Shown: piece by piece, positions 1-12,328 of the stretch
Numbering within the stretch: the first letter of the stretch is position 1
Layout of the letters: each line of letters opens with the position of its first letter
IMG/VR virus record: IMGVR_UViG_3300030102_006920
Location: 1-26,091 of that record
Direction: 5' to 3' (one strand)
Length of the DNA: 26,091 nucleotides
Source: a virus
Notes under the pieces: model-generated
Databases searched by the model: none
Told to the model about the DNA's origin: nothing
What the model saw: only the letters and a program-made list of their open reading frames with translations
Program-made: the position numbers and the translations under genes

Positions 1-1064
1 TTACTGGAAACTCTTTAACATCTTCAGTTGGTACAGGAGTTGCTACAGCTGATGTAAATATAACACCAACTGGTGTAAATCTGACATCTACTATAGGTCA
101 AGTAGGATCTATGGCTGAAGCTGGCACTTTAGCTTTAACATCCTCCATAGGAACTTTTTCCATATCTGGTGATTCACAAATAACTGTTGTAGCGGCAAGT
201 GAACCTGAATTAGATATATCAATAGGCACAGCCTCTGTAGAAATAGGTAAAACAGCTTTTCCATCAGGTAATGCTATTACTGCAAGTCTTGGCACAGAAG
301 TTGTAACAGGTAACGCTATCGTTAGCCCTACTGGTGTATCAAACACAGCATCTCTTGGAACTGAGGTTGCATCTACAGATGTTAATGTCGTAGGTGTTGG
401 TGGATTTATAACCAAAACTGTTACAGTAGTTAGAAACGCAGCTGATACAGCTAATATTTATGCTATAGATGGTGTTCCACAGCCTACTTTAGAATTAGCA
501 GAGGGTAATACATATAGATTTGATCAATCTGATGGATCTAATGATTCACATCGTTTAAAATTTTCTGAAACTTCTGATGGAACGCATGCAGGTGGTAGTG
601 AATATACTACAGGAGTAACCGTAGTAGGGACGTCTGGAACAGCTGGAGCATACACTGAAATTACTGTGGCTTCTGGTGCTCCTACATTATTTTACTATTG
701 TATTAATCACTCTGGAATGGGTGGTCAGGCAAATACTCCTTCATCTGATGCTAACGCCTTTTCTGCAAGCGGATTAACAAGTTCGATTGGTCAAATAGAC
801 TTTGTAGGATCTGTTTCTGCAGCAGCGTCTGGTAATGCTTTAGCTGCCTCACTTGGCGAAGAAAGTCAGTCTTCATCGTATGCATTTACGGGTGTAAGTG
901 CTTTATCAAACATAGGAACTTTAACAGTTACTGGAACTTCGACTTTGACACTTCCAGGAGTTTCTGCTACAATTAGCACTGGCACTCTACAAGGGACTTT
1001 TTGGTCAGAAGTAGATGACTCAAACAGCGATATAAGTTGGACAGAAGTTCACAAAGCTGCATAA
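1..1064 (+). CDS. Tail-fibre/appendage-type repeat protein with an internal cupredoxin-like domain (5' partial)
   Basis: The reading frame is open from base 3 at the window edge, so the start lies upstream; the first in-frame ATG (111) is only an internal Met. The protein consists of degenerate repeats of about 16-20 residues of the type GNxLTxSxGT...TG, seen before base 405 and again after about 750. Between them is a compact domain (405-749) with an IDGVPQPTLELAEG-type strand, SHRLKF (His codon 549-551) and YYCINHSGMGG (Cys 699, His 708, Met 717). Cys-x-x-His-x-x-Met after an upstream His matches the type-1 copper ligand set and the loop spacing of amicyanin. The C-terminus ends WSEVDDS...WTEVHKAA, an ending I associate with marine phage appendage proteins. 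The repeats and the neighbouring structural genes suggest an exposed virion protein. The structural role is fairly likely; copper binding is only inferred from residues. Confidence 0.75.
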   Translation, partial: TGNSLTSSVGTGVATADVNITPTGVNLTSTIGQVGSMAEAGTLALTSSIGTFSISGDSQITVVAASEPELDISIGTASVEIGKTAFPSGNAITASLGTEVVTGNAIVSPTGVSNTASLGTEVASTDVNVVGVGGFITKTVTVVRNAADTANIYAIDGVPQPTLELAEGNTYRFDQSDGSNDSHRLKFSETSDGTHAGGSEYTTGVTVVGTSGTAGAYTEITVASGAPTLFYYCINHSGMGGQANTPSSDANAFSASGLTSSIGQIDFVGSVSAAASGNALAASLGEESQSSSYAFTGVSALSNIGTLTVTGTSTLTLPGVSATISTGTLQGTFWSEVDDSNSDISWTEVHKAA

Positions 1065-1069
1065 AAGTT

Positions 1070-1099
1070 TTGACAAACTTTAATTTATAACTTTATATA
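1070..1099 (+). promoter_or_regulatory. Possible promoter just before the 404-aa structural gene
   Basis: A perfect TTGACA (1070-1075) is followed 18 nt later by TATATA (1094-1099). The next gene starts at 1109 with a ribosome site GGAGAT at about 1100-1105, so a transcript from here would begin almost at the start codon and lose that site. It may be fortuitous, or active only as a weak or leaderless start. Confidence 0.2.
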
Positions 1100-1108
1100 G
1101 GAGATATT

Positions 1109-2323
1109 ATGAGTTCGACGTATTCGACAAGTTTGAGAATAGAGCTACAAGGCACTGGTGAAAATTCAGGAACTTGGGGTACTATCACTAATAACAATTT
1201 TTCCCAATCGTTAGAATTTTCTATTGCTGGTACAGTAAATGTGGCTTGTGGGGATGCTGCAGTTACAACACTAACAAATAACGATGGACCACAAACTCAA
1301 GCAAACAACCAAGCCAGAAATGCACATATAAGATTAACTGGTGCACATGGTGCAGTAAGAATAGCACAATTCCCAGCTACACAAAAAGTTTATTTAATCA
1401 CAAACGCTACAACTGATTCTGGATCTTCTGGTCCATATGCGATGACTTGCAGACTAGGAGCGTCAGGTAACACTATTTCAATTGAAAACGGGGCTACAAG
1501 ATTAGTAGCAACAAACGGAACTGATTGGTTTGATGTTTTTGCTTCACCAGGCACTGTAACAGCGCCTGTAGATTTAAATGGTCAAACACTTACATTAGAC
1601 GCCGATGCTGATACAACTATCTCAGCAGCTTCTGATGATGTAATTACATTCAAAGTTGCAAATGCAAATCAATTAACACTTTCAGACGGAGCGTTATCTC
1701 CGTCTACAACAAACGACATTGATCTTGGAACTTCGTCTTTAGAATTTAAAGACGCATTTTTTGATGGAACTGTGCGTATGGACGCAATAGGTTTTGGAAC
1801 TACTTCTATGACACTGCCTACAAGTGATGGATCTGCAGATCAATTTTTAAAAACAAACGGCACTGGTACTTTATCTTTTGCAACAGTCTCAACAACCACT
1901 GCATTAGATGATATTGCTACAGGTGACGCTGAATCAACTTTAGCTACTACGACAGGAAATATAATTTTAGACGCACAAGGTAATGATACTGACATAGTAT
2001 TCAAAGGCACAGATAATACCGCTGACATAACCATGCTTACTCTTGACGGTAGTGAAGCTGGCACAGCAACATTTAATTCAGGTGCTGTTTTTGGAGGGTC
2101 TGTTTTACCTTCCGCTGATGATACTCATGATTTAGGATCTTCAACAAAACAGTGGAGGGACATATACACTGGTGACTTAAATTTAAACAATACAAAAACA
2201 AGAGCCAACGAAGTTGATGGCACATCAGGTCATTGGACTATTCAAGAGGGAGATGAAAACCTCTTTATTTTAAATAGATTAAATGGTAAAAAATATAAAT
2301 TCAACTTAGAGGAGATAGAGTAA
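1109..2323 (+). CDS. Phage tail-fibre/appendage structural protein
   Basis: The 404-residue protein starts SSTYSTSLRIELQGTGENSG and continues with a TWGTITNNNF segment, an N-terminal module I associate with appendage proteins of marine phages. The middle is rich in Thr, Ser, Asp and Gly with beta-type repeats such as DLGTSSLEFKDAFFDGTV and DLGSSTKQWRDIYTGDL. These two are copies of one shaft/baseplate-like repeat (DLG[ST]SS..[FW][KR]D...G), at about residues 201 and 340. The C-terminus (WTIQEGDENLFILNRLNGKKYKFNL) could be a tip or trimerisation region. The start has a strong AGGAGAT ribosome site 5-6 nt upstream. The stop overlaps the next start as TAATG, indicating coupled translation. No enzymatic motif is seen. 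It could equally be a neck fibre; the exact virion position is unknown. Confidence 0.7.
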   Translation: MSSTYSTSLRIELQGTGENSGTWGTITNNNFSQSLEFSIAGTVNVACGDAAVTTLTNNDGPQTQANNQARNAHIRLTGAHGAVRIAQFPATQKVYLITNATTDSGSSGPYAMTCRLGASGNTISIENGATRLVATNGTDWFDVFASPGTVTAPVDLNGQTLTLDADADTTISAASDDVITFKVANANQLTLSDGALSPSTTNDIDLGTSSLEFKDAFFDGTVRMDAIGFGTTSMTLPTSDGSADQFLKTNGTGTLSFATVSTTTALDDIATGDAESTLATTTGNIILDAQGNDTDIVFKGTDNTADITMLTLDGSEAGTATFNSGAVFGGSVLPSADDTHDLGSSTKQWRDIYTGDLNLNNTKTRANEVDGTSGHWTIQEGDENLFILNRLNGKKYKFNLEEIE

Positions 2324-2652
2324 TGGCTTTAATAGTAGGTGGAACAACGGTAACTGGAACACAAACCTTAGATGCAACTAAGCTTACTGGTAATTTACCA
2401 GCAATAAACGGATCTTCCCTAACCAATTTACCTGCAGCAACGTTTAGTAATGCAGATACAGTAGGAGTATTTTTACTAGGACTTCCTGACAACAACAATG
2501 TTCAGCCAAGTGCCACACAAGGTGGTTCTTCAGTTCAATATACTAATACAAACAATAACATTTCAAACCCAATTCCAAGACCAAGTGGTACTTTAAGAAT
2601 TATGGGTTATGCTGCTCACAGTGGTGGTAGTGTTTATCAAAGAATTTCATAG
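2323..2652 (+). CDS. Small phage structural protein (fibre-associated)
   Basis: This 109-residue protein starts inside the previous stop (TAATG), behind a GAGGAGAT ribosome site. Residues about 18-40 contain LTGNLPAINGSSLTNLPA, a motif typical of phage tail-fibre proteins (LTG.LPAI.GS.LTNL). The rest is Asn/Ser/Gly rich and ends in GTLRIMGYAAHSGGSVYQRI. It lacks obvious hydrophobic or enzymatic features. Its place between two other fibre-region genes suggests a minor fibre or fibre-tip component. The short length could also mean it is a C-terminal module split from a longer fibre gene in relatives. Confidence 0.6.
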   Translation: MALIVGGTTVTGTQTLDATKLTGNLPAINGSSLTNLPAATFSNADTVGVFLLGLPDNNNVQPSATQGGSSVQYTNTNNNISNPIPRPSGTLRIMGYAAHSGGSVYQRIS

Positions 2653-2661
2653 GAGGTAATC

Positions 2662-2985
2662 ATGGATTGTGTTTTAATTGATGCTAAAAACCCAAGATAC
2701 GAATATTTAGTTGAGCCCGCTTTAGAATCAGATGGCACTTTAAAAAAAGATTCAAATGGTAATAACATACTTTACTATGAAAAAGATGATAGTGGTAACA
2801 GAGCAAAAGGTTTGGTAATTGACGCAAAATGGCAACACGTTGAAGAGTTAGGTTACACACCTTTTCATGCAACCTCTTATGACAATGAACAACACGGTAA
2901 GGATTTGTATGCTGCAATTATGAATGGTGATTATGGAGCTATAGCGGCAGCTCAAGATAAACCAGGCGTAACTGACGCTCCTTAA
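2662..2985 (+). CDS. Conserved-looking small phage protein, function unknown
   Basis: I do not recognise this 107-residue protein. It follows the preceding gene by 9 nt with a strong AGGAGG ribosome site at about 2651-2656. The sequence is hydrophilic and mixed alpha/beta in look: it begins MDCVLIDAKNPRYEYLVEPAL, has a Lys/Asp-rich turn (KKDSNGNNILYYEKDD) and later WQHVEELGYTPFHATSYDNEQHGKDLYAAIMNGDYGAI. It is the last plus-strand gene before a tail-to-tail junction with the minus-strand block, with only 6 nt between the stops. Position suggests a virion or fibre-assembly accessory protein, but this is only context. Confidence 0.55.
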   Translation: MDCVLIDAKNPRYEYLVEPALESDGTLKKDSNGNNILYYEKDDSGNRAKGLVIDAKWQHVEELGYTPFHATSYDNEQHGKDLYAAIMNGDYGAIAAAQDKPGVTDAP

Positions 2986-2991
2986 AGTCTT

Positions 2992-3630
2992 TCACATTTT
3001 AGTATTATTATTACTTAAAAACCATGGTAAACCTAACATAGGCCTACCGTCATACTTGTTTAAATCTTTAAAAGGACCGTTCATATCATTATAATGTAAA
3101 AAAGTTTGACAACAGTCTTGACCCTGAAAAGGCTCTCTCCAATGTTCTAAATCGCAGCCACTATAAACTAACATATCGCCTGGATTTAAAAATACTTTTA
3201 TACCCTTTTTGTCAGTTCCTTCGCTAGGATCTAAATTTATTGGCCACTCATCTCCTCCTAAATTTAATGTGCAAGAAATTTCGCAAGAGGGTCTATCTTT
3301 ATGTCTTTTTAAAATATCTCCGTTTTTGTAAATCCTTAAAAAAGAATAACAAGGAACTAATTTTTTTCCTGTTATTTCCATCATTTTTGTTTTTAATTTT
3401 ACCAACAATGTTTCTGTAAGTATGTCGCCGTAGTTTACATATGTGTTAGGAACGGAAGTATCATCCCAAACACCCCATAAACTCTCGCCGTTTCTTACGT
3501 TTATTATTTCTTTATTATGTAAATATTTTACTACTTCTCTTTTCTGTAATAAATATGCGTAACAAAAATTAGCTAAATCTTCAGTTATTGCGTTTCTAAT
3601 AATCTCGTATTTATTTTCTTTAAAACTCAT
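2992..3630 (-). CDS. Fe(II)/2-oxoglutarate-dependent oxygenase-like protein, lacking the usual 2OG-binding Arg
   Basis: The protein is 212 residues from the ATG at 3630. A GTG 24 nt earlier (3654) is in frame, but the 3630 ATG overlaps the upstream stop as ATGA, so I prefer it. The core is FLRIYKNGDILKRHKDRPSCE, a strand followed by a His-x-Asp iron motif (H110, D112), then CTLNLGGDEWPINL, then NPGDMLVYSGCDLEHWREPF with the distal His (H163). That is the double-stranded beta-helix layout of prolyl-hydroxylase-like 2OG oxygenases. About 10 residues after H163, where an Arg or Lys normally holds 2-oxoglutarate, there is QDCCQTF instead. It may use another residue, a different cosubstrate, or be inactive. 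It is the last gene of the minus-strand block, and the substrate is unknown. Confidence 0.65.
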   Translation of the reverse strand: MSFKENKYEIIRNAITEDLANFCYAYLLQKREVVKYLHNKEIINVRNGESLWGVWDDTSVPNTYVNYGDILTETLLVKLKTKMMEITGKKLVPCYSFLRIYKNGDILKRHKDRPSCEISCTLNLGGDEWPINLDPSEGTDKKGIKVFLNPGDMLVYSGCDLEHWREPFQGQDCCQTFLHYNDMNGPFKDLNKYDGRPMLGLPWFLSNNNTKM

Positions 3631-4220
3631 TGAAATGTTGGTCCGTGCGCCCACCCGACAACTGCAAACCTTCTCCCCTTTGTTATTTCTGTTACCCTAT
3701 GAAAAACAAAACTTGGAAAAATAATTAGTGTGCCTTTCTCTCTTGTTCTTTTATCAAACTCTTGCCCAAAAAATTCTAAATCACCACCCTCGTACTCATC
3801 TGAATCAGATAATTGTAATGTAAATCCAAGCTTTCTAGTTGGAGAAGATCCACCTACGTCAAAGTGCCAATCAAATTTTCCTCCAACATCATAACGAAAC
3901 ACTTGAGGTTGATCTGTAAGCATGTCAAAACCAGTAATATCAAATTTCCAATAGTCAGAATTTATTTCTGCAATTGAGTTTGATATTTGTGGGTATGGGA
4001 AATGTTCGTCAATAATTTTAAGAGGCTGTTCATTACCTACTCTTTGTTTTGTTAAATCATCATTCATCTCATTTGTAACAGATTGCACTACCTCTGATTT
4101 AAACCAATCTTTTTCTAAAGAATCAATTATCTTTTGTATTCCCATGTTGTCAAATATTTTAGTGCAAACATATGTGTATCCTATGCTACGATTACCTTTT
4201 GGTTTAATTGTATAATACAT
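3627..4220 (-). CDS. PKHD-type Fe(II)/2-oxoglutarate-dependent oxygenase (prolyl hydroxylase-like)
   Basis: This 197-residue protein is the clearest oxygenase of the set. FRYDVGGKFDWHFDVGG carries the HxD iron motif (H119, D121). GFTLQLSDSDEYEGGDLEFF is the typical central region of the PKHD/YbiX-like group. GTLIIFPSFVFHRVTEITKGRR gives the distal His (H174) and the 2-oxoglutarate Arg ten residues later (R184). It ends VGWAHGP, a common ending in this group. The family hydroxylates amino-acid side chains or small molecules using O2 and 2-oxoglutarate; its substrate here cannot be told. The start has AAAAAGAAG just upstream. It is translated before, and coupled to, the next oxygenase (ATGA overlap at 3627-3630). 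The upstream 125 nt separates it from a plus-strand small gene, so it may have its own promoter. Confidence 0.88.
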   Translation of the reverse strand: MYYTIKPKGNRSIGYTYVCTKIFDNMGIQKIIDSLEKDWFKSEVVQSVTNEMNDDLTKQRVGNEQPLKIIDEHFPYPQISNSIAEINSDYWKFDITGFDMLTDQPQVFRYDVGGKFDWHFDVGGSSPTRKLGFTLQLSDSDEYEGGDLEFFGQEFDKRTREKGTLIIFPSFVFHRVTEITKGRRFAVVGWAHGPTFQ

Positions 4221-4345
4221 TCTTCTTTTTAAGTTTTATAACACAAAAGCAATGTCAAGAAAACAATTTTAAAAAATACTATTGCGAAGACTAAAAATAT
4301 GCTTACATTAGGTTCTCACCAAAATTAACAATCACAGGAGATATT

Positions 4346-4504
4346 ATGAGCGAACAAGATTATTTAAAAGCCATTGCTGTCCTTGCTGACAAGGTGAGCA
4401 GATACCACGAAAGACTATTAGCTGTCGAAAGAGACATGGAAAAACATCAAAAAGATTCAAATAGTCATTGTTGTGATGACTGTGAATGTAAGAAATCTAC
4501 TTAG
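4346..4504 (+). CDS. Small 52-aa protein with Cys-rich tail, on the plus strand inside the minus-strand block
   Basis: An ATG with a perfect AGGAG ribosome site (4337-4341) opens a 52-codon frame: MSEQDYLKAIAVLADKVSRY, then helical RLLAVERDMEKHQKD, then HCCDDCECKKST. The N-terminal 40 residues read as one amphipathic helix or short coiled coil. The tail has four Cys and one His in ten residues, suggesting metal binding or disulfides. The gene lies opposite in strand to everything around it and ends 8 nt into the 3' end of the convergent 84-aa gene. The strong ribosome site, clean composition and otherwise unexplained 125-nt upstream gap support it as real. I do not recognise the family. It could be a small regulator or a metal chaperone. 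Confidence 0.6.
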   Translation: MSEQDYLKAIAVLADKVSRYHERLLAVERDMEKHQKDSNSHCCDDCECKKST

Positions 4505-4751
4505 GAGTCGAACCCAACATATCTTTTAATGATGGAGCAAATACTTTTACATCTCGCTTAATTTTTTCTGCGGTTGTAGAAGTGTTTGGATCATCTATGT
4601 CTGCTTGCATAGCTTCTTCTGAATCATATTCTTGACCAGTGTCCATATTAGTTAATGTTGTTTCAGTTTTGACCTTATATCTTGGTATTACTCTACCGTC
4701 CTCTAAAGTCATAGTTCCTATTTGTTCAGCTGGTGTAATTATCGGCATCAT
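4497..4751 (-). CDS. Small conserved phage protein, function unknown
   Basis: This 84-residue protein begins MMPIITPAEQIGTMTLEDGR, continues VIPRYKVKTETTLTNMDTGQ, and has an acidic centre (EYDSEEAMQADIDDPNTST) with a basic, Pro-containing end. It has two start Mets in a row directly behind a GGAGGA ribosome site, so either ATG (4751 or 4748) may be used. It overlaps the upstream oxygenase stop by 26 nt, so the two are probably co-translated. There is no membrane segment or known catalytic motif. Its position next to virion genes in the same block makes a structural or assembly role possible, but nothing in the sequence proves it. Confidence 0.65.
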   Translation of the reverse strand: MMPIITPAEQIGTMTLEDGRVIPRYKVKTETTLTNMDTGQEYDSEEAMQADIDDPNTSTTAEKIKRDVKVFAPSLKDMLGSTPK

Positions 4752-5325
4752 TCCTCCAATTTATATTAAAACTTAAAATAACTCTATCTTCGTTAGAACT
4801 ATTATATTGTACTTCATGTTGTAACCATGACGGGAAAAAAATCAAGCTATTCTCCTCTGGCTCCCAAGAAACACTATGTGCTATGTGCACAGAGGCTTTT
4901 TCTTTTTTTGGAGGTGATAATACCTCAGCTTGTGGTTTAGGCTCCAGAAACACTAAATTACCGCTTTTTTTAGGCACTTTTAAATAGTAAACACCTGAGA
5001 GGTAATTGTAAGGGTGTGTATGAACATTATTTCTTGATCCAGGTGGATTAATCATTCCCCATAAACCTGTCATCTCTGGATTGTAATCGTCCTGAACATC
5101 TAAATGTTGAAAACACTCTTTAGCTTTTAGCAGTATATCTCCAACGGTGCTTTTAAATTCCACATCTTTGTATAATTCATCATGGCTATGCCATCCTCCT
5201 ATGTTTGATCGTGGCATGCCTTTTTCGTCTTTATCTTTGATTTCATAAAGCCTATCTATCAAGTGCCCATGGCCCTCAATTTTAGTCATCAAGATTGGTG
5301 TTATAAATAATGATTGTAATTCCAT
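4726..5325 (-). CDS. Putative 2OG-Fe(II) oxygenase of the TIGR02466-like type
   Basis: The 199-residue protein has the fold signature of a 2OG-Fe(II) oxygenase, with a variant metal motif. LWGMINPPGSRNNVHTHPYN contains H102-T-H104 in the position of HxD, followed by YLSGVYYLKVP, which resembles the TIGR02466 group. Later ENSLIFFPSWLQHEVQYNSS supplies the distal His (H170), and EDRVILSFNINWR the Arg (R181) eleven residues on. N-terminal YKDVEFKSTVGDIL-type helices fit the family. It starts behind a clean AGGAG site 6 nt upstream of the ATG and follows the 123-aa virion-type gene by 13 nt. The reaction is probably O2- and 2-oxoglutarate-dependent hydroxylation; the substrate is unknown. Confidence 0.8.
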   Translation of the reverse strand: MELQSLFITPILMTKIEGHGHLIDRLYEIKDKDEKGMPRSNIGGWHSHDELYKDVEFKSTVGDILLKAKECFQHLDVQDDYNPEMTGLWGMINPPGSRNNVHTHPYNYLSGVYYLKVPKKSGNLVFLEPKPQAEVLSPPKKEKASVHIAHSVSWEPEENSLIFFPSWLQHEVQYNSSNEDRVILSFNINWRNDADNYTS

Positions 5326-5338
5326 GCTTTCTCCTTTT

Positions 5339-5710
5339 TTAAAGTTGACCTTTTGTGACCTCCATAAAACTGACAGTCACGTGAACCTGATTAGCTGCGT
5401 TGGCTTGAACCTTTAATACGTCAGATTCTTGCAATACTAAAGTTGAACCGAGCTCGGCCAACGGATCTTTTGTAGTATTAGTAGTTATACTAAAAGCCTT
5501 AAATATTTCAAAAGTAGCAGAGGATCTCACAACTTCTAAATCAACTAATGTTGTAGAACCAGAGTCATTGCATATTAAAATTGATTTTACTACAGCTGTC
5601 GTTGGTGGAACTGGTGGTGTAGCACCAGGATCAGCCGTCGGTACAGTTACAACTGTCGTTAAATCTGTTGAGGTGACGTCCACCATTGCACTTTTGAATG
5701 TATTAGCCAA
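5339..5710 (-). CDS. Small virion-type protein (beta-rich), TTG start
   Basis: This 123-residue protein is beta-rich in look: KSILICNDSGSTTLVDLEVV, SATFEIFKAFSITTNTTKDP, LAELGSTLVLQESDVLKVQA, and a C-terminal VHVTVSFMEVTKG. The alternation of short strands and Asn/Thr/Ser turns resembles small head or tail decoration proteins of marine phages. The frame opens with TTG, not ATG: the start TTGGCTAA overlaps the stop of the upstream 55-aa gene by 8 nt. An in-frame ATG eight codons later (MVDVTSTDL) is a possible alternative, but the overlap arrangement favours TTG. A short poly-Pro segment (DPGATPPVPPTT) lies near residue 30. The function is inferred from composition and neighbours. Confidence 0.65.
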   Translation of the reverse strand: MANTFKSAMVDVTSTDLTTVVTVPTADPGATPPVPPTTAVVKSILICNDSGSTTLVDLEVVRSSATFEIFKAFSITTNTTKDPLAELGSTLVLQESDVLKVQANAANQVHVTVSFMEVTKGQL

Positions 5711-5870
5711 GGAAAAAACTCTCTGCTTGTGAATCTTCTTTGAGATCTTGTTGATAGTTTGTATTTAATAATAATATTATTTGATCTAATAATTTTACTA
5801 ATTGATCAAATTGTCCAGGATTATACTCTGGGGTTGCGTTGGGTAATCTAGTAATTGTAATTTTAGCCAT
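5703..5870 (-). CDS. Small 55-aa phage protein with an amphipathic helix
   Basis: An ATG at 5870 opens a 55-codon frame: MAKITITRLPNATPEYNPGQ, then FDQLVKLLDQIILLLNTNYQ, then QDLKEDSQAESFFLG. The middle is a Leu/Ile-rich amphipathic helix that could oligomerise. The start overlaps the oxygenase stop upstream as ATGGCTAA (8 nt), and its own stop overlaps the next start as TTGGCTAA (8 nt). It therefore fits exactly into an otherwise unexplained 150-nt gap, which is strong evidence that it is real. Function unknown; a small neck or tail accessory protein is one possibility. Confidence 0.7.
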   Translation of the reverse strand: MAKITITRLPNATPEYNPGQFDQLVKLLDQIILLLNTNYQQDLKEDSQAESFFLG

Positions 5871-6297
5871 TTTTATACCAAATAGACAAAGTGTGTCTTA
5901 TTCCTTTTACAACATTTAATACAGCATGTTTGTACATCCTACCATCAAAATAATAGGTTCTACCCTTAATTGGAGATATTTTAATAGCCTCAACTAGAGC
6001 CTCTCCCCCAATAAAATTGTCATTTAAAAAGGTTATTGACGCTCCAGTTGTAGTTTCTCTAGCCTGATCGAAGTGAAAGGGCATAGATCCTCCTAAAGGA
6101 TATGAAACTATTTGTGCTAACTCTACGTTTTTAAATTTATTATCAACAGATTGATTTAAAATTTTAGTCACTGAAGGATGATTATGATTAATATCGACAG
6201 TAAAGCTGTCTCCCCATTTTTCATTTGGATAATTTGTAAATTCTAATAGTTTTTTAATTTCTTCTTCTGATAATGTATTATCTTTAATACAGATCAT
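5863..6297 (-). CDS. Compact Fe(II)/2-oxoglutarate-dependent oxygenase
   Basis: At 144 residues this is a short but complete-looking oxygenase core. IVSYPLGGSMPFHFDQARET carries HxD (H75, D77). SITFLNDNFIGGEALV is the mid-core region. GRTYYFDGRMYKHAVLNVV holds the distal His (H124), and KGIRHTLSIWY places the 2-oxoglutarate Arg (R134) ten residues on. All metal and cosubstrate residues of the P4H-like group are present. The start overlaps the end of the large structural gene as ATGA, and the stop overlaps the 55-aa gene, so it is embedded in a virion-gene transcript. The short N-terminal region (about 60 residues before the core) suggests a minimal enzyme; the substrate is unknown. Confidence 0.85.
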   Translation of the reverse strand: MICIKDNTLSEEEIKKLLEFTNYPNEKWGDSFTVDINHNHPSVTKILNQSVDNKFKNVELAQIVSYPLGGSMPFHFDQARETTTGASITFLNDNFIGGEALVEAIKISPIKGRTYYFDGRMYKHAVLNVVKGIRHTLSIWYKNG

Positions 6298-8138
6298 CTT
6301 CTACCGTCTGGACGTAATTGTAATTTTTGAGATCCTAATCTCCAAGGTGTGTCATTAACTGTGGAAGTCTCGTATTTAATTTTTACTGCTCTGCCTCTTC
6401 CTCTTACATTAATTTTTTCTGTTGTGCTCGTAATACTGCCACTCGTTGTGACATTTGAACTTGACTGAGGATATTGTTCCAAAGTTAAAGTGGCTGTCAT
6501 TGTGTTTGCTAAGTTAGTAAAATCAGGCACTAATTTACTTACTGACATTAACTGATCCCCATCGGCAATTTCAACAGAACCTGTTTCTAAAAAGGCACTT
6601 ATAGCTGTGCCATCAGCTTGATTATTTCCTTGCTCATGTTCATAAACAAAAGATGCACCTGCTGTTAATCCCAAAATTGTAGATATGTTTGCAGTTAAGC
6701 TAGCATTATACTCTGTTGCTATTGGTGATTCATATACATAAGCTCCTAACCAAGTAGTTCTTCCCAAACTTACAGTATACCAAGTACCTTCTAGGTAGTT
6801 GTATGCTACCGCTCTATCTATCTGCGTTGCGTTAGCAGAAGGGTAATACCAAATAATTTCATTGTACGCTGTATTTAGACCCACAGCTATGTCATTTTTG
6901 TTTGTGTAGCTTATGTTGTCAAAAACAAAATCTTGAACCGAACAAGGCATTTTTTTAACAACACCATCATACAAGTAAAAAGCGTCGTCTGACATCCAAT
7001 AAGCTATTCCGTTAACTTCTATTGCTGCATGTTGTGCTATTAATCCAGCGTTAGCTCCTAACTGTCTCAGTCCAAAAGTAAAAGGTGTGCCCACAAATTG
7101 AACACCGTGTAAAGATGTATCTGTCCAAACTAATATTTGACCTGCAGATTTTACAGCTCCTACTATTCTTGAACCATCAGAAATACGTAATGAGCCCGCT
7201 TCGTTGGTTGCGACAGGTGTGTAATCTGTTGCGTCTTCTCTGTCAGAAAATCTTAATAGTAAATCATCTTGTGTTGAAGTGTTACCAATAGTTGTTTCAG
7301 TTCCAAAAATAAGTAAGTGTCTAGTGTCCGTAGATACTAAACTAAATCTTGATGCAGTAGGTGCATTTGATAATGCAGTAGCCCTATTGCTTAAACCTCC
7401 TGAAGTATCCCAAATAAAAGTGCCTCCGTCTAAAACTGTTGCTATTAAATCTTCACCAAAATTATCTAAAGACCAGTTACGTCCTGCTACAACAACATTT
7501 GATGATGATCTAGCAGTGTCCCAAGTGCTCTCTCCCCATGTTAATGTACCCCAACCATAACCATAAGTAGAGGTAGAGGGTCCTACATTAATTTGATATT
7601 TAGCGTTGCCAGATCCTCCGCCACCAGAAGTAGATCCTGAAGCAGTGCTTGTATGAGTTACAGTGTATGTATTAGCTGACGGCACTGTAATGACCTCAAA
7701 TTCTTGATTCATGTCCAAACCATCTATTGATGAGAAAGAGTCAAATGTAACAAAATCGCCAACGATAGCTCCATGAGAAGCGTCTGTAACAGTGACTGTA
7801 GTAGAGCCATTGGTGGTAAACGGATTTGATAATGATTCTGTGTCACGTAAAGGAGTTATGTCTGATATTATACCTTCAGAGTAAATGTATAATTTTCTAT
7901 CAGTTCCTAAAGCTAGATATCTAGTTCCATCTAAACCTATCCAACTATGAGTGTCACGAACCACACCTACCACTGTTTTGTTTGGATTTGGTAGGAATTT
8001 CCATCCACCCCACCTTTCAGGTTTTCCGTAATGAAACCTTACAAAATCAGAGTCTATGTACTTTCTTGAGTCTCCTGCTGAATATGCTGAGTCTTGTTTA
8101 TCAACGCCTGGTTTAAATTTTAAATCTATTAATTGCAT
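6294..8138 (-). CDS. Large virion structural protein (connector/packaged-DNA stabilisation or tail-hub type)
   Basis: The 614-residue protein starts MQLIDLKFKPGVDKQDSAYS, then AGDSRKYIDSDFVRFHYGKP and ERWGGW. It is then mostly beta-rich, with propeller-like repeats: WIGLDGTRYLALGTDRKLYI, NWSLDNFGEDLIATVLDGGT, HLLIFGTE and FWIWYYPS-like segments. A Gly/Ser-rich linker (STASGSTSGGGGSGN) lies near residue 165-180. The opening and the DNFGEDLIA motif are what I associate with marine phage virion proteins comparable to the P22 gp10-type DNA stabilisation/tail proteins; that assignment is from memory and not certain. No Shine-Dalgarno sequence is visible in the 14 nt before the ATG, so translation probably depends on the gene just upstream. 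The ATGA overlap with the next oxygenase couples them. Confidence 0.75.
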   Translation of the reverse strand: MQLIDLKFKPGVDKQDSAYSAGDSRKYIDSDFVRFHYGKPERWGGWKFLPNPNKTVVGVVRDTHSWIGLDGTRYLALGTDRKLYIYSEGIISDITPLRDTESLSNPFTTNGSTTVTVTDASHGAIVGDFVTFDSFSSIDGLDMNQEFEVITVPSANTYTVTHTSTASGSTSGGGGSGNAKYQINVGPSTSTYGYGWGTLTWGESTWDTARSSSNVVVAGRNWSLDNFGEDLIATVLDGGTFIWDTSGGLSNRATALSNAPTASRFSLVSTDTRHLLIFGTETTIGNTSTQDDLLLRFSDREDATDYTPVATNEAGSLRISDGSRIVGAVKSAGQILVWTDTSLHGVQFVGTPFTFGLRQLGANAGLIAQHAAIEVNGIAYWMSDDAFYLYDGVVKKMPCSVQDFVFDNISYTNKNDIAVGLNTAYNEIIWYYPSANATQIDRAVAYNYLEGTWYTVSLGRTTWLGAYVYESPIATEYNASLTANISTILGLTAGASFVYEHEQGNNQADGTAISAFLETGSVEIADGDQLMSVSKLVPDFTNLANTMTATLTLEQYPQSSSNVTTSGSITSTTEKINVRGRGRAVKIKYETSTVNDTPWRLGSQKLQLRPDGRR

Positions 8139-8152
8139 GATTTATTATTAAA

Positions 8153-8953
8153 TTACTTATTGTTTTGTGGCAAGAATTGAGTTCCCACATTGCCTTTAAA
8201 TGCATAATTACCATAGTGAGTCATACCAGACACTATATCTGCGTAAATTTTACCGCCTATATTTTGCCATAAACGGCAGAAAGCATAATCTTCTGAGAGA
8301 TATCTTCTAGTTTTTGGCTCAATTATTGTGTCAAAAAAAGTAAAATTCCAGTTGGATGTTTTATGATAATCAAACTCTTTGTCATGTGATTGATTAATAT
8401 GTTGATCAGGAACAAAACTTAAATCAGGATAACTCTTTGCCATTTGTTCAAATACTTGCCTTTTAATTAACATAAATCCAGTAGGTCCGTCTAATACTTC
8501 TATAAAACCTTTATCTAACAGGATTTTTTCAGGGTTTTTAACATTTAAATTGTACTGCAAAGATGAGGCCAGTAACTCATCCTCCGATATGTTTGGATTT
8601 TCTTTAATTCTCTTCTTTACTTTTATCCAATCAATTGTTTTTCTAGGATATATTCCTGTGACAACGTCCTTATCGTAATCTAACATTCTAATTACAGCCT
8701 CTGGATTGAATGCTAAGTCTGCGTCAATAAATAAAAGATGAGTATAGTCACCATCCATAAACAATTGCACTAAAGTGTTTCTAGCTCTAGTTATCAAAGA
8801 CTCATTGCCTATGGTTCCAAACTGTAATTCTATTTTGTTGGAGGCCGCTAAAGCTACTAATTGCATGCAACTTTTAAAATAATCTGATGACAACATACCT
8901 CCATAGCAAGGGGTGCCAATAAAAAGTTTTATTTGTAATTTTTCCTTGTCCAT
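8153..8953 (-). CDS. GT-A-type glycosyltransferase
   Basis: This 266-residue protein begins IKLFIGTPCYGGMLSSDYF, the nucleotide-sugar-binding start of GT-A enzymes. A long helix follows with NESLITRARNTLVQLF, then THLLFIDADLAFNPEAVIRM, where D77-A-D79 is the DxD metal/nucleotide motif. Further on, DVVTGIYPRK, VLDGPTGFMLIKRQVFE and a late RYLSEDYAFCRLW (acidic ED in the acceptor/catalytic region) fit the same fold. This style is common in marine phages. The donor sugar and acceptor are unknown; candidates are virion proteins, host surface glycans or modified DNA. A clean AGGAG ribosome site lies 7 nt before the ATG, although the start also overlaps the upstream gene by 25 nt. The downstream neighbour is the 614-aa virion protein; two oxygenases flank it within about 2 kb. 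Confidence 0.85.
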   Translation of the reverse strand: MDKEKLQIKLFIGTPCYGGMLSSDYFKSCMQLVALAASNKIELQFGTIGNESLITRARNTLVQLFMDGDYTHLLFIDADLAFNPEAVIRMLDYDKDVVTGIYPRKTIDWIKVKKRIKENPNISEDELLASSLQYNLNVKNPEKILLDKGFIEVLDGPTGFMLIKRQVFEQMAKSYPDLSFVPDQHINQSHDKEFDYHKTSNWNFTFFDTIIEPKTRRYLSEDYAFCRLWQNIGGKIYADIVSGMTHYGNYAFKGNVGTQFLPQNNK

Positions 8954-9675
8954 ACTTTACTCCTGTATAAATCATACAAAGTTGAAAAATAATTCCAACT
9001 CCATATACTTATTTTTTTATTTAAGTTTGGGTCATTATTAATTTTCATCTCCCAGTCATCTCTTCTAAAAGGGAAGACTAGAGCAATCGGTGTGCCTTTC
9101 TTTACTACTTTTTTTCTAGAGACGTGATGATCCCAATCTTTTAAAAAAAATGGAAAATTTATAAACGTCTCATATTTGTCTGTATCTACCACTGCAGTTA
9201 TAATTCTTGTATCTCTTCGTTCTGTATTAAAAGGTGAAGTAAACAAACAACTGTATCCTGGTGGTGTTTTAATTACCCACGGATTTAAAAATTTAAATGC
9301 AACTGGCACCTCTTCGTCATAAATCATTGTTTTACTTATTTGTATTTCTGCGTGAGTTTGAACTCCAACATTGAACTCACTTTCTGTATGAACTTTATGT
9401 ATTGATTCATAATCTAAAAGCCTGGCAGGTCTAACTTTTATCTCATAATTATTATCTCCAAATGCTTCGTTTTTTGTAAATTGAATATCTATAGGGGACA
9501 ATATTGCGTATCCCATAGTCATGCTATCCAGTACGGGCTGACATTTTCTTATCGTATTATTATTTGCATCCTCTATAATTATTTTCATATTTTTGTACCA
9601 ATTTGGTATTACTTTTTTTATTGGCACAGGTTTTTCTAAATGATCTGCATATGAACTACTAAAACTAATTATCAC
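8929..9675 (-). CDS. DUF6065-like conserved protein, function unknown
   Basis: The 248-residue protein starts with GTG: GTGA overlaps the upstream oxygenase stop. Features: PIKKVIPNWYKNM near residue 20-30, FKFLNPWVIKTPPGYSCLFT at about 128-146, VVDTDKYETFINFPFFLKD at 162-180, and KKGTPIALVFPFRRDDWEM at 192-210. The order 'PPGY... / VDTD.... / KGTPIAL.FPF' matches what I remember of the DUF6065 family, a group without known function; I could not check this. The beta-rich appearance with an internal His cluster (WDHHVS) would allow a cupin-like fold. It sits between an oxygenase and a glycosyltransferase, with overlaps on both sides, suggesting a shared modification pathway. Confidence 0.65.
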   Translation of the reverse strand: MIISFSSSYADHLEKPVPIKKVIPNWYKNMKIIIEDANNNTIRKCQPVLDSMTMGYAILSPIDIQFTKNEAFGDNNYEIKVRPARLLDYESIHKVHTESEFNVGVQTHAEIQISKTMIYDEEVPVAFKFLNPWVIKTPPGYSCLFTSPFNTERRDTRIITAVVDTDKYETFINFPFFLKDWDHHVSRKKVVKKGTPIALVFPFRRDDWEMKINNDPNLNKKISIWSWNYFSTLYDLYRSKVWTRKNYK

Positions 9676-10217
9676 TTATCAGGCTCTCTAAAAAATATAT
9701 TTAGTGTATACCTCGGGCTACTTTCTCCAAGTGCTTGTAAATCTGAATGTAAAATTTTACTACAATTAAAAAATAAAGCTCTGTTTTCTACAAAACCAAT
9801 GTGTGATGACAGTTGTTGGTCATAAAGAAAACCCGTGCCATTGTTTAATAATGGCTCACCTTTGACAAACAAAAGGAAGATAGCACAAACGCCATCATCT
9901 GCATCCATATGAAACAAGGGTTCTCTCATAACATCTTTTATGTGAGCATGAATTGATACAGTTTCTAGATTTCTATTAGGATAAAACATGTCTTTTATTT
10001 GTTTTAAAATAGGATCATTTAAAATTTTCTTTCCAACATAAGCATCTGGTTTTTTTCTCATGTAAAAAGTGTGTCTTTTACCGTAAGCATTACCATGCAT
10101 ATCTTTTGCTATCCCGTAATTAAGATTGCTAAACGTTTCTTGCATATGTTTTAAATTTTTTTCTTCTAAAAAATTATCAACATACATAACAAATTCTGTG
10201 TCTTTATTGAGTTGCAT
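9672..10217 (-). CDS. Fe(II)/2-oxoglutarate-dependent oxygenase
   Basis: The 181-residue protein carries REPLFHMDADDGVCAIFLLF, with HxD (H103, D105) at the start of the core. Next come NGTGFLYDQQLSSHIGFVEN and RALFFNCSKILHSDL with the distal His (H157), then SSPRYTLNIFFREP with Arg (R169) twelve residues on. The spacing and order fit the phage 2OG-Fe(II) oxygenases that end in YTLNIFFR. The N-terminal half (DNFLEEKNLKHMQETFSNLN) is the usual helical lead-in. It overlaps the upstream 83-aa gene by 14 nt and the downstream DUF6065-like gene by 4 nt, so it is tightly coupled. Reaction: likely hydroxylation; substrate unknown. Confidence 0.82.
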   Translation of the reverse strand: MQLNKDTEFVMYVDNFLEEKNLKHMQETFSNLNYGIAKDMHGNAYGKRHTFYMRKKPDAYVGKKILNDPILKQIKDMFYPNRNLETVSIHAHIKDVMREPLFHMDADDGVCAIFLLFVKGEPLLNNGTGFLYDQQLSSHIGFVENRALFFNCSKILHSDLQALGESSPRYTLNIFFREPDK

Positions 10218-10455
10218 ATTCTACCTTTAAATATTCTATTTTTCTTACCCAACCACGTGGTATAGCGATAGCTCCTCCACCATGATTATCATCTTTATCT
10301 GTGCACCAAGATCTCATTATAATTAATTTATCATCATTGTTCACAACCATGTAGCCAACTTCTTGGCACACGGCTAACGGCGCAGCTTGTATTTCTTTTA
10401 ATTCAAGCCAACCAGTTTCCATATCCCTTGCGTCAAGCCATGTAATTCTAACCAT
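10204..10455 (-). CDS. Small conserved phage protein, function unknown
   Basis: From the ATG at 10455 this is 83 residues: MVRITWLDARDMETGWLELK, then EIQAAPLAVCQEVGYMVVNN, DDKLIIMRSWCTDKDDNHGG and IPRGWVRKIEYLKVEY. An earlier in-frame ATG at 10476 adds seven residues. I prefer 10455 because an AAGGA ribosome site lies about 10 nt before it, while 10476 has no clear site. The pattern of short strands (TWLDA, GWLEL, VGYMVVN, KLIIMRSW) suggests a small beta-barrel, perhaps a protein-interaction domain. It sits between two oxygenases. I do not recognise the family, so no function is assigned. Confidence 0.6.
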   Translation of the reverse strand: MVRITWLDARDMETGWLELKEIQAAPLAVCQEVGYMVVNNDDKLIIMRSWCTDKDDNHGGGAIAIPRGWVRKIEYLKVEYATQ

Positions 10456-10476
10456 AGGAAACTTTTCCTTACGCAT

Positions 10477-11256
10477 TTACTTTTTATAAGTTGCAGTAAA
10501 AACGCTATCCAGTCTATCTTCAACGGTTGTGTCTTGCACGACATCATCTTTTAAACCTTGAGGACCGCCAGTTTCTAATGACGGCTTATATTGCTCACTT
10601 GCCACTCCTCTCGGCACTACTTTAACATTAAAAGATGTAGATCTTCTCTCTTGGTTAGGTGTTCTAAATGGATAAACGCAATGCGTTAACCAAGAAGGAA
10701 ATAAAAAAATATCCCCCACTTTAGGGCTGTGTTGAAAATTGTTTTCACTAAAGTGTTGTGCGTTGCCATAAGAGAACACTATGTCACCGACTGCAGGAAA
10801 ATGATCTTCTTTAGATCTTTCTTCATCCATGCTTTCTGGTATCCTCGTATACAAAACACCTGATAAATCACCGTCGTGCACATGCATAGGATTAAAGTCA
10901 CCTGCCCACTGAGAAACAGTCCACATAGATTCTATTACAACTTTTTGTATTTTTTCTGATGGTATTGTATTCATCGCTGGTTTTATTGTACAATATGATT
11001 GTATCATTTGACCTAAAAACTGCACAAACTCTGAACAATGTTTTTCAAGCCAGTCTGGAGTAATTCTAACCTCTTGTTTTACGTTGCCTGCAAGATTCAT
11101 TGACCAGTCATGTTTTTTTGCTAATACTGGGTCATTTAACAGTTCAGATGAGTGTTCATCTATTTTTCTAACGATATTATTTGGCAATGTGCCCTTAACT
11201 ATTACAGGGCCCCAAGGCTGAATTGCTTGTAAATTGTACTTGGTTTCTTCAGTCAT
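10477..11256 (-). CDS. Putative 2OG-Fe(II) oxygenase with HVH metal motif; first gene of the minus-strand block
   Basis: The 259-residue protein contains ESMWTVSQWAGDFNPMHVHD, with H125-V-H127-D128 as the first metal motif. Next is GDLSGVLYTRIP, as in the TIGR02466-like group, then VGDIFLFPSWLTHCVYPFRT with distal His H192, and ERRSTSFNVKVV with Arg 204/205. Whether H125/H127 or H125/D128 bind iron cannot be decided from sequence. A roughly 25-residue insertion (SMDEERSKEDHFPAVGDI) separates the two halves. A C-terminal tail of about 45 residues (QYKPSLETGGPQGLKDD) is extra. An AAGGA ribosome site lies 7 nt before the ATG, and a good promoter stands about 50 nt upstream. It is the first reading frame of the transcript that carries the other oxygenases. 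Confidence 0.78.
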   Translation of the reverse strand: MTEETKYNLQAIQPWGPVIVKGTLPNNIVRKIDEHSSELLNDPVLAKKHDWSMNLAGNVKQEVRITPDWLEKHCSEFVQFLGQMIQSYCTIKPAMNTIPSEKIQKVVIESMWTVSQWAGDFNPMHVHDGDLSGVLYTRIPESMDEERSKEDHFPAVGDIVFSYGNAQHFSENNFQHSPKVGDIFLFPSWLTHCVYPFRTPNQERRSTSFNVKVVPRGVASEQYKPSLETGGPQGLKDDVVQDTTVEDRLDSVFTATYKK

Positions 11257-11277
11257 ATTATTCCTTTCTTTTTTATA

Positions 11278-11306
11278 TTGTCATATAGCAATATTTTGCC
11301 TATAAA
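11278..11306 (+). promoter_or_regulatory. Sigma70-type promoter for the ejection-protein operon
   Basis: TTGTCA at 11278-11283 and TATAAA at 11301-11306 are separated by exactly 17 nt, each differing from consensus at one base. Transcription would start near 11313, giving a leader of about 70 nt to the 11384 start codon. It shares its -10 bases with the minus-strand promoter on the other strand. Confidence 0.6.
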
Positions 11307-11334
11307 TATAGAATTAATTGGCTTTTTATTTCAA
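11305..11334 (-). promoter_or_regulatory. Sigma70-type promoter for the minus-strand (oxygenase/virion) block
   Basis: Read on the minus strand, TTGAAA (11334-11329) and TATATT (11310-11305) are separated by 18 nt, each one base off consensus. A start near 11298 would give a leader of about 42 nt to the ATG at 11256. Its -10 overlaps the plus-strand -10 within TATAAATATA (11301-11310). Confidence 0.55.
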
Positions 11335-11383
11335 GCGTAGCCTTCTTGCCGTAAACAATCACATAAATTGCATTAAGGAGATT

Positions 11384-12328
11384 ATGCTAAAAGGTTTAAA
11401 AGGGATTTTAGAAAAAGCAGTTCAGGTAGCAGCGCCTATTATTGGTAACATAGTTTTACCAGGAGGTATAGGGGCAGCGGCAGGATCAGGAATAGCAGGA
11501 TTATTGACAGGTCAAAAACCTAAAGATGCCATAATATCTGCAGGTCTTTCTGGATTATTAGCATCAAGACTACCAGGTGGCACGCCACCAAGCAGTATAA
11601 CCCAAGGCGAGACGGTTAGACGTGGCAATGAAATGTATGATAATATTACTAGAAGATTACCTAAAAAAAGTTTTTTCTCTAAAATAGGTGATGCCTTAGT
11701 TAGTGATAAAGGGCCAACGGCTCTCGGCACATCACTAGCAGTTGGTTTACCCGCAGTGCTAGCAGGAATAGCAGCGGCTCAAGATGCAAAAAAAGCACAA
11801 CCTATGGACCCAGCAATGTATCAAAGTGCTACTGATAGAATGTATGGTGGTCAGTTTGCATCGCCCCCAGCAAATAGAAGAATATCAAATTTAGAAGAAC
11901 AAATTACTTTGCCTCAAACGGTGTTTCAAACATCGCCGATTAGTAGAGCAGAGGGAGGAGTAATGAATGTAAGGCCTCCTAGTTATAGTGCCGTTGATGG
12001 ATCGACAGGTATCATGGGATTAGCAGAAGGTGGAGATGTAGACATTAAAGAGTTAGAGACACTAATGGAGGATGGCAAAATGACTTTAGAAGAAGCTATG
12101 GATTATCTAAAATCTATAGCCGATGACAAAGCTAAAGGCGGTTTTCCTAGAAAAACTGGCATGATTAATGGCCCAGGTGGACCAAAAGATGACAAAATTC
12201 CAGCTATGTTAAGTAATGGAGAGTTTGTATTTACAGCAAAAGCTGTTAAAGAAGCTGGTGGTCCAGGCGTTATGTACAGCATGATGAACAAACTAGATCC
12301 AGAATCGGAGAAACCTACAGATGGCTAA
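11384..12328 (+). CDS. Virion internal/ejection-type protein with IPAMLSNGEF motif
   Basis: I place the start at 11384 (314 residues) because AAGGAG precedes that ATG at the right distance. A longer frame from 11318 would begin within a few bases of the predicted transcription start and has no ribosome site. The N-terminus (MLKGLKGILEKAVQVAAPII, then GNIVLPGGIGAAAGSGIAGL) is a glycine-rich hydrophobic stretch, and a second lies at about residues 111-131 (ALGTSLAVGLPAVLAGIAAA). These are typical of proteins that insert into the host envelope during DNA ejection. The C-terminal DDKIPAMLSNGEFVFTAKAV (about residues 269-288) is a motif I know from many marine phage structural proteins. AEGG turns occur at about residues 189 and 215. 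It is the first gene of the virion operon and overlaps the next by 8 nt. Confidence 0.68.
   Translation: MLKGLKGILEKAVQVAAPIIGNIVLPGGIGAAAGSGIAGLLTGQKPKDAIISAGLSGLLASRLPGGTPPSSITQGETVRRGNEMYDNITRRLPKKSFFSKIGDALVSDKGPTALGTSLAVGLPAVLAGIAAAQDAKKAQPMDPAMYQSATDRMYGGQFASPPANRRISNLEEQITLPQTVFQTSPISRAEGGVMNVRPPSYSAVDGSTGIMGLAEGGDVDIKELETLMEDGKMTLEEAMDYLKSIADDKAKGGFPRKTGMINGPGGPKDDKIPAMLSNGEFVFTAKAVKEAGGPGVMYSMMNKLDPESEKPTDG

Follow-up and report, generated by a model that had tools for sequence, protein, structure and literature searches.

The window analyzed here (26,091 nucleotides, positions 1 to 26,091 of IMG/VR virus record IMGVR_UViG_3300030102_006920) covers most of a 30.4-kb virus record and, judging from its sequence, belongs to an uncultivated marine phage lineage related to the HTVC023P-type pelagiphages. 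The six minus-strand open reading frames (ORFs) that an initial annotation had singled out by an iron-ligand layout all exist with the ends listed below, and all six proteins are 2-oxoglutarate (2OG)/Fe(II)-oxygenase-like. This six-gene observation is confirmed and lies well above chance. Clustered 2OG genes as such have already been described; new here is a correction for PHROG 2954, the family of the first of these genes (A), which is annotated as ferrochelatase and looks like a further 2OG oxygenase. The six genes are:

2992..3654, minus strand: gene A, 2OG-oxygenase-fold protein of PHROG 2954 (the 'ferrochelatase' family); probable true start ATG 3630
3627..4220, minus strand: gene B, 2OG-Fe(II) oxygenase, PiuC/PKHD-like (PF13640); candidate upstream partner of A
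4726..5325, minus strand: gene C, putative 2OG-Fe(II) oxygenase with HxH...H (PF13759/TIGR02466), conserved in the cluster of the lineage
5863..6297, minus strand: gene D, short 2OG-Fe(II) oxygenase (PF13640)
9672..10217, minus strand: gene E, 2OG-oxygenase-fold protein without its own Pfam match; partial PHROG 274 match
10477..11256, minus strand: gene F, putative 2OG-Fe(II) oxygenase with HxH...H (PF13759), first gene of the block

Four of the proteins match oxygenase families in Pfam over the curated cut-off (B, PF13640, 1.1e-14; C, PF13759, 2e-24; D, PF13640, 7.7e-8; F, PF13759, 3.9e-17); the same search returned no family for A or E. PHROG profiles are matched by A (phrog_2954, 3e-51) and by E (phrog_274, 4e-12), the latter profile also weakly by B, C, and D. 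Neither A alone nor profiles of A and E retrieved anything meaningful from the PDB by sequence, and the structures of A and E were therefore predicted with AlphaFold2 from alignments that combined the window with its relatives (60 sequences for A, 40 for E); both models are confident, with mean pLDDT of 89.7 and 87.9, respectively. The model of A has the 2OG-oxygenase beta fold, aligned across residues ~6-217; its best PDB match in Foldseek is the complex of P. putida prolyl-4-hydroxylase (P4H) with EF-Tu (4iw3, E 7e-10), and VIA-align gives Z ~15-17 against SnoN, PHD2, and P4H. The PDB matches listed by Foldseek for E are 2OG oxygenases, including PHD2, P. putida P4H, and the chlorella virus collagen prolyl hydroxylase vCPH. 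Prolyl-4-hydroxylases (P. putida P4H 4iw3/4j25, PHD2) thus share fold and metal-site layout with A and E, yet identity in the structural alignments is only ~9-20%, so that the fold tells the class and not the substrate. B resembles PiuC/PKHD-type hydroxylases and shares fold and metal-site layout with PiuC/YbiX, as does C with the solved TIGR02466 proteins 3bvc and 2rg4, likenesses from which substrates are not inferable. The double-stranded beta-helix fold is accordingly assigned by AlphaFold2 with Foldseek and VIA for A and E and by Pfam for the other four. Hence, the profile and structure comparison that the initial annotation had proposed finds all six oxygenase-like, and the protein-hydroxylase likeness it had suggested agrees with the closeness in fold of A and E to prolyl hydroxylases.

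In profile-profile comparison, clear full-length kinship is confined to B-D and C-F; B and C share a short C-terminal stretch, and the other pairs are remote, which fits the earlier impression of long-diverged genes. The comparison gave no convincing link of A or E to the other four, and their assignment therefore rests on structure and conserved motifs. For E, tblastn found no relative in the phage collection. A leukocidin/hemolysin-type identity of D was rejected: the Pfam/NCBIfam matches are weak, below cut-off, and cover 50-odd residues only, whereas PF13640 is over cut-off. Two PHROG names, 'DNA endonuclease V' for 274 and 'DNA endonuclease' for 2297, were discarded as mislabels, since what these profiles hit in B, C, D, and E is the oxygenase domain. 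The labels recur in locus L172 (800-3046; syn9 gp51, gp53, and gp54), where those of PHROG 274, 2297, and 2954 ('DNA endonuclease V', 'DNA endonuclease', and 'ferrochelatase') stand on families matching 2OG-oxygenase domains, and RefSeq phage records such as syn9 carry these endonuclease and ferrochelatase names too.

The iron-ligand layout is as initially claimed, and its residues are 100% conserved in all six families (18-85 aligned sequences each). The ligands of A are H118/D120/H171 in the numbering of the 2992-3654 ORF; the ATG at 3630 matches relatives and gives 212 residues, with the ligands then numbered H110/D112. The corresponding sites are H119/D121/H174/R184 in B, H102/H104/H170/R181 in C, H75/D77/H124/R134 in D, H103/D105/H157/R169 in E, and H125/H127/H192/R204 in F, and HxD...H is invariant in A, B, D, and E. 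In all families except A, an invariant Arg follows the distal His after 10-12 residues, a position where Arg is the usual 2OG anchor. Median pN/pS is 0.12-0.21 across all six families (close pairs, 75-98% identical); all six genes are under purifying selection and thus are used.

Gene A is 51-56% identical to the 'putative ferrochelatase' proteins of HTVC023P and HTVC033P. The Pfam ferrochelatase family has no match, even weak, among 60 members of the A family, nor among eight published phage homologues, each of which carries the ferrochelatase annotation. Residues H118, D120, and H171 are kept in all aligned examples of the A family, including those of cyanophages syn9, P-SSM7, S-H9-2, and S-RIM32. 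Ferrochelatase has an alpha/beta fold, which is not matched by the confident beta-fold model of A. Because of the missing ferrochelatase match, the retained HxD...H, and the predicted fold, A is a 2OG-oxygenase-like protein and looks like another hydroxylase. Our literature search found no paper that questions the phage ferrochelatase label. A 2024 study treated PHROG 2954 as a ferrochelatase whose seasonal signal co-occurs with that of 2OG oxygenases (PMC11561400), and in HTVC023P-type pelagiphages the phages' 'ferrochelatases', one or two, are reported always to adjoin an oxygenase (PMC9599517). In our collection, an A-family gene adjoins another 2OG gene in 72 of the 77 places with enough flank, and the PHROG 3531 profile (362 long) joins A-like and B-like regions, A matching 50-176 and B 206-361. 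Based on this adjacency and the joined profile, A and B look like a functional pair and possibly form a heterodimer. The 'ferrochelatase' family is duplicated in some relatives, as in locus L066 (9035-10196), where two A-family (PHROG-2954-like) genes stand in tandem.

The minus-strand block (2992-11256) is flanked by tail-fibre-like genes and by a plus-strand run including a DNA-ejection-like protein. Its order of transcription is F, a 90-aa protein, E, DUF6065, glycosyltransferase-like, virion structural, D, a small protein, C, an 84-aa protein, B, and A. The genes between the oxygenases are:

4497..4751, minus strand: small protein between C and B, function unassigned, without Pfam or PHROG family
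5339..5710, minus strand: small protein, function unassigned (PHROG 1276)
6294..8138, minus strand: virion structural/stabilisation protein (PHROG 3287), query for the lineage collection
8153..8953, minus strand: glycosyltransferase-like protein (weak PF00535, PHROG 1574), kept across the lineage
8929..9675, minus strand: DUF6065 protein, function unassigned (PF19541, PHROG 7084)
10204..10476, minus strand: small protein, function unassigned (PHROG 25889)

Four-base overlaps join E to DUF6065 and D to the virion protein, the DUF6065 and glycosyltransferase genes overlap by 25, and A overlaps the stop of B by 4 nt if it begins at ATG 3630. As several neighboring genes overlap, the block is likely co-transcribed, and its tight packing with a virion gene supports the initial annotation. 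The remainder of the record (to 30369) contains a DNA polymerase and small ORFs, with no evident extra oxygenase by inspection. Relatives of the DUF6065 protein in the phage collection are mostly from tailed haloarchaeal viruses (HF2, HRTV group; ~27-31% identity); in relatives, DUF6065 genes often adjoin 2OG and glycosyltransferase genes, and one locus (L058) has two copies. A tail-fibre-like protein (111-1064, plus strand) has no Pfam match; its cupredoxin-like stretch, DSHRLKF...FYYCINHSGMGG, hints that a virion protein here carries a copper-site motif.

With the virion protein of the block as query, 80 loci of the lineage were collected from viral contigs, and an ORF was counted if its motif was intact and it matched one of the six profiles significantly. 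The 32 loci that reach 12 kb or more (isolate loci L082-L085 included, the window left out) have a median of 6 2OG genes per locus and a maximum of 12. Six is the ordinary number for the lineage of the window. The maximum occurs in L013 (13.8 kb), in which twelve 2OG-oxygenase-like genes lie within ~11.3 kb (993-12300), the densest set in this analysis; of ten L013 genes compared with Pfam, seven exceed a 2OG cut-off, one exceeds that of DUF6445, and two match oxygenases only weakly. PF13759 alone matches 2-9 places per record in ten records. Since the profiles were iterated, the family letters in locus counts are approximate. The lineage commonly has relatives of the glycosyltransferase (73 loci, 86% identity), C (58 loci, median 80% identity), F (46), and E (41); those of A (12), B (7), and D (17) turned up in fewer loci, all these counts being lower bounds because many loci are fragments.

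The initial annotation knew of no described system with this arrangement. Such clusters are on record, however, and six is the lineage median, so the arrangement is not new. HTVC023P-type pelagiphages are reported to have eight distinct, non-orthologous 2OG-Fe(II) genes, often near one another (PMC9599517). Their virion protein is 40-42% identical to that of the window, and local gene order is similar in this region. In HTVC023P, HTVC027P, and the 023Pt genomes, as in the window, 2OG genes lie around the same virion protein gene, an annotated 'ferrochelatase' adjoins a 2OG gene, a glycosyltransferase follows downstream, and a superfamily II helicase stands at the block end. The window lineage differs in that its 2OG genes in this single region are more numerous (as many as 12 in 14 kb) and in that some members have DUF6065 genes. 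In Pelagibacter phage HTVC008M, five consecutive genes (I899_gp068-gp072) comprise four annotated 2OG oxygenases and an A homologue labelled 'ferrochelatase'; a head-tail adaptor gene borders this run, and a baseplate gene lies near its opposite end. Unlike the window, HTVC008M is a T4-like myovirus, and its gene types differ in part (phytanoyl-CoA-dioxygenase-like). Cultured T4-like cyanophages are said to have 1-5 2OG genes (PMC9602691; table in PMC3037559), with counts of 24 in S-SCSM1 (PMC9602691) and nine in S-SZBM1 (PMC9146016). The latter two phages resemble the window in their many divergent 2OG genes, which in S-SCSM1 include PF13640 and PF13759 types, but have large T4-like genomes, and the 2OG genes of S-SZBM1 are described as scattered (PMC9146016). 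Phage 2OG proteins that resemble EGLN3 and retain the iron-ligand histidines were reported in the Phold paper (PMC12774648).

We propose with moderate confidence, as the best explanation of the whole, that the block is a lineage-typical cluster of 2OG/Fe(II) oxygenases hydroxylating protein side chains, made with virion proteins and with A and B paired. The six oxygenases would be produced together with virion proteins and, by means of Fe(II), O2, and 2OG, would add hydroxyls to protein side chains, virion or host proteins being the likeliest targets; the neighboring glycosyltransferase might glycosylate some of the hydroxyls, and A and B would act as a pair. Activity, substrate, and timing of the enzymes are what we infer. 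Protein hydroxylation is favored on two grounds: A is nearest in fold to protein prolyl hydroxylases, and the genes sit with a virion gene. Hydroxylation followed by glycosylation is a reasonable guess for at least one enzyme, because a 2OG gene lies directly upstream of the glycosyltransferase gene, often overlapping it, in 48 of the 68 testable loci. Several points weigh against the proposal. The substrate assignment is one that we infer, and inspection by eye found no substrate clues in tail proteins and no glycosyltransferase-oxygenase fusions. Protein hydroxylation is not forced by the fold, as the top Foldseek rows for E and A include the small-molecule oxygenases SnoN, SptF, and AviO1. 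An insertion hotspot among late genes might by itself account for the closeness to virion genes, and in the window itself DUF6065, not a 2OG gene, is directly upstream of the glycosyltransferase. Furthermore, catalysis is not assured for all six: HxH...H, not HxD, is invariant in C and F, and in A an invariant Gln183 replaces the likely 2OG-binding Arg, with invariant R107, R121, and R173 elsewhere.

Small-molecule oxygenases such as SnoN and SptF among the fold matches would also suit a reprogramming of host metabolism, proposed for cyanophages (PMC3037559), by 2OG drawdown or small-metabolite hydroxylation (the 2OG/nitrogen signalling hypothesis). We consider this unlikely, albeit worth keeping in view: six divergent enzymes, each with a distinct, conserved core, would be more than 2OG drawdown requires, and no recognized pathway genes lie alongside. 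Action on nucleic acids, whether by AlkB-like repair or by oxidizing modified bases of phage DNA, appears rather improbable. A DNA-repair role has been suggested for cyanophage 2OG genes, in part because some lie near uvs genes (PMC3037559; PMC9146016), AlkB appears lower down in the Foldseek list of A, and D has a weak, sub-threshold match to PF09859 (Oxygenase-NA). However, the genes of the window lie with a virion gene, Pfam gave no AlkB or TET/JBP match, and the best fold matches of A are prolyl hydroxylases. Gene content varies between relatives, as would be expected if most of the six were degenerate, functionless passengers of a recombination hotspot, but the fully conserved ligands and strong purifying selection in all six, with pN/pS well below 1, make this very improbable. 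Least credible of all is an iron-handling module in which A, as a ferrochelatase, supplies or regulates haem iron. This published reading of PHROG 2954 has the database and paper annotation of the family on its side, and afuABC iron uptake genes go up on HTVC027P infection (PMC12753301); it is contradicted by the fold of A, modeled as that of a 2OG oxygenase with invariant HxD...H, and by the unmatched Pfam ferrochelatase family described above. The redox or iron control considered initially is weakened in this 'ferrochelatase'-partner version, the partner itself looking like an oxygenase.

Building on the favored protein-hydroxylating cluster, the lineage might modify its own virion proteins by variable hydroxylation and glycosylation, with conserved oxygenases, a coupled glycosyltransferase, and exchangeable accessory oxygenases, among them a two-subunit A-B hydroxylase until now taken for a ferrochelatase and an oxygenase, altering adhesin or coat chemistry, a speculative extension that as a whole is probably too specific to hold. 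The correction of PHROG 2954 bears on two papers that build on the phage 'ferrochelatase', as a haem-iron partner (PMC9599517) and as a seasonal marker (PMC11561400). If the A family is an oxygenase family, the reported co-occurrence would be one of paired oxygenases, and the haem/iron interpretation would fall away. More generally, large sets of 2OG oxygenases recur, unexplained, in abundant ocean phages, and the very dense sets of this lineage (up to 12 in 14 kb) offer a compact system for finding their substrates.

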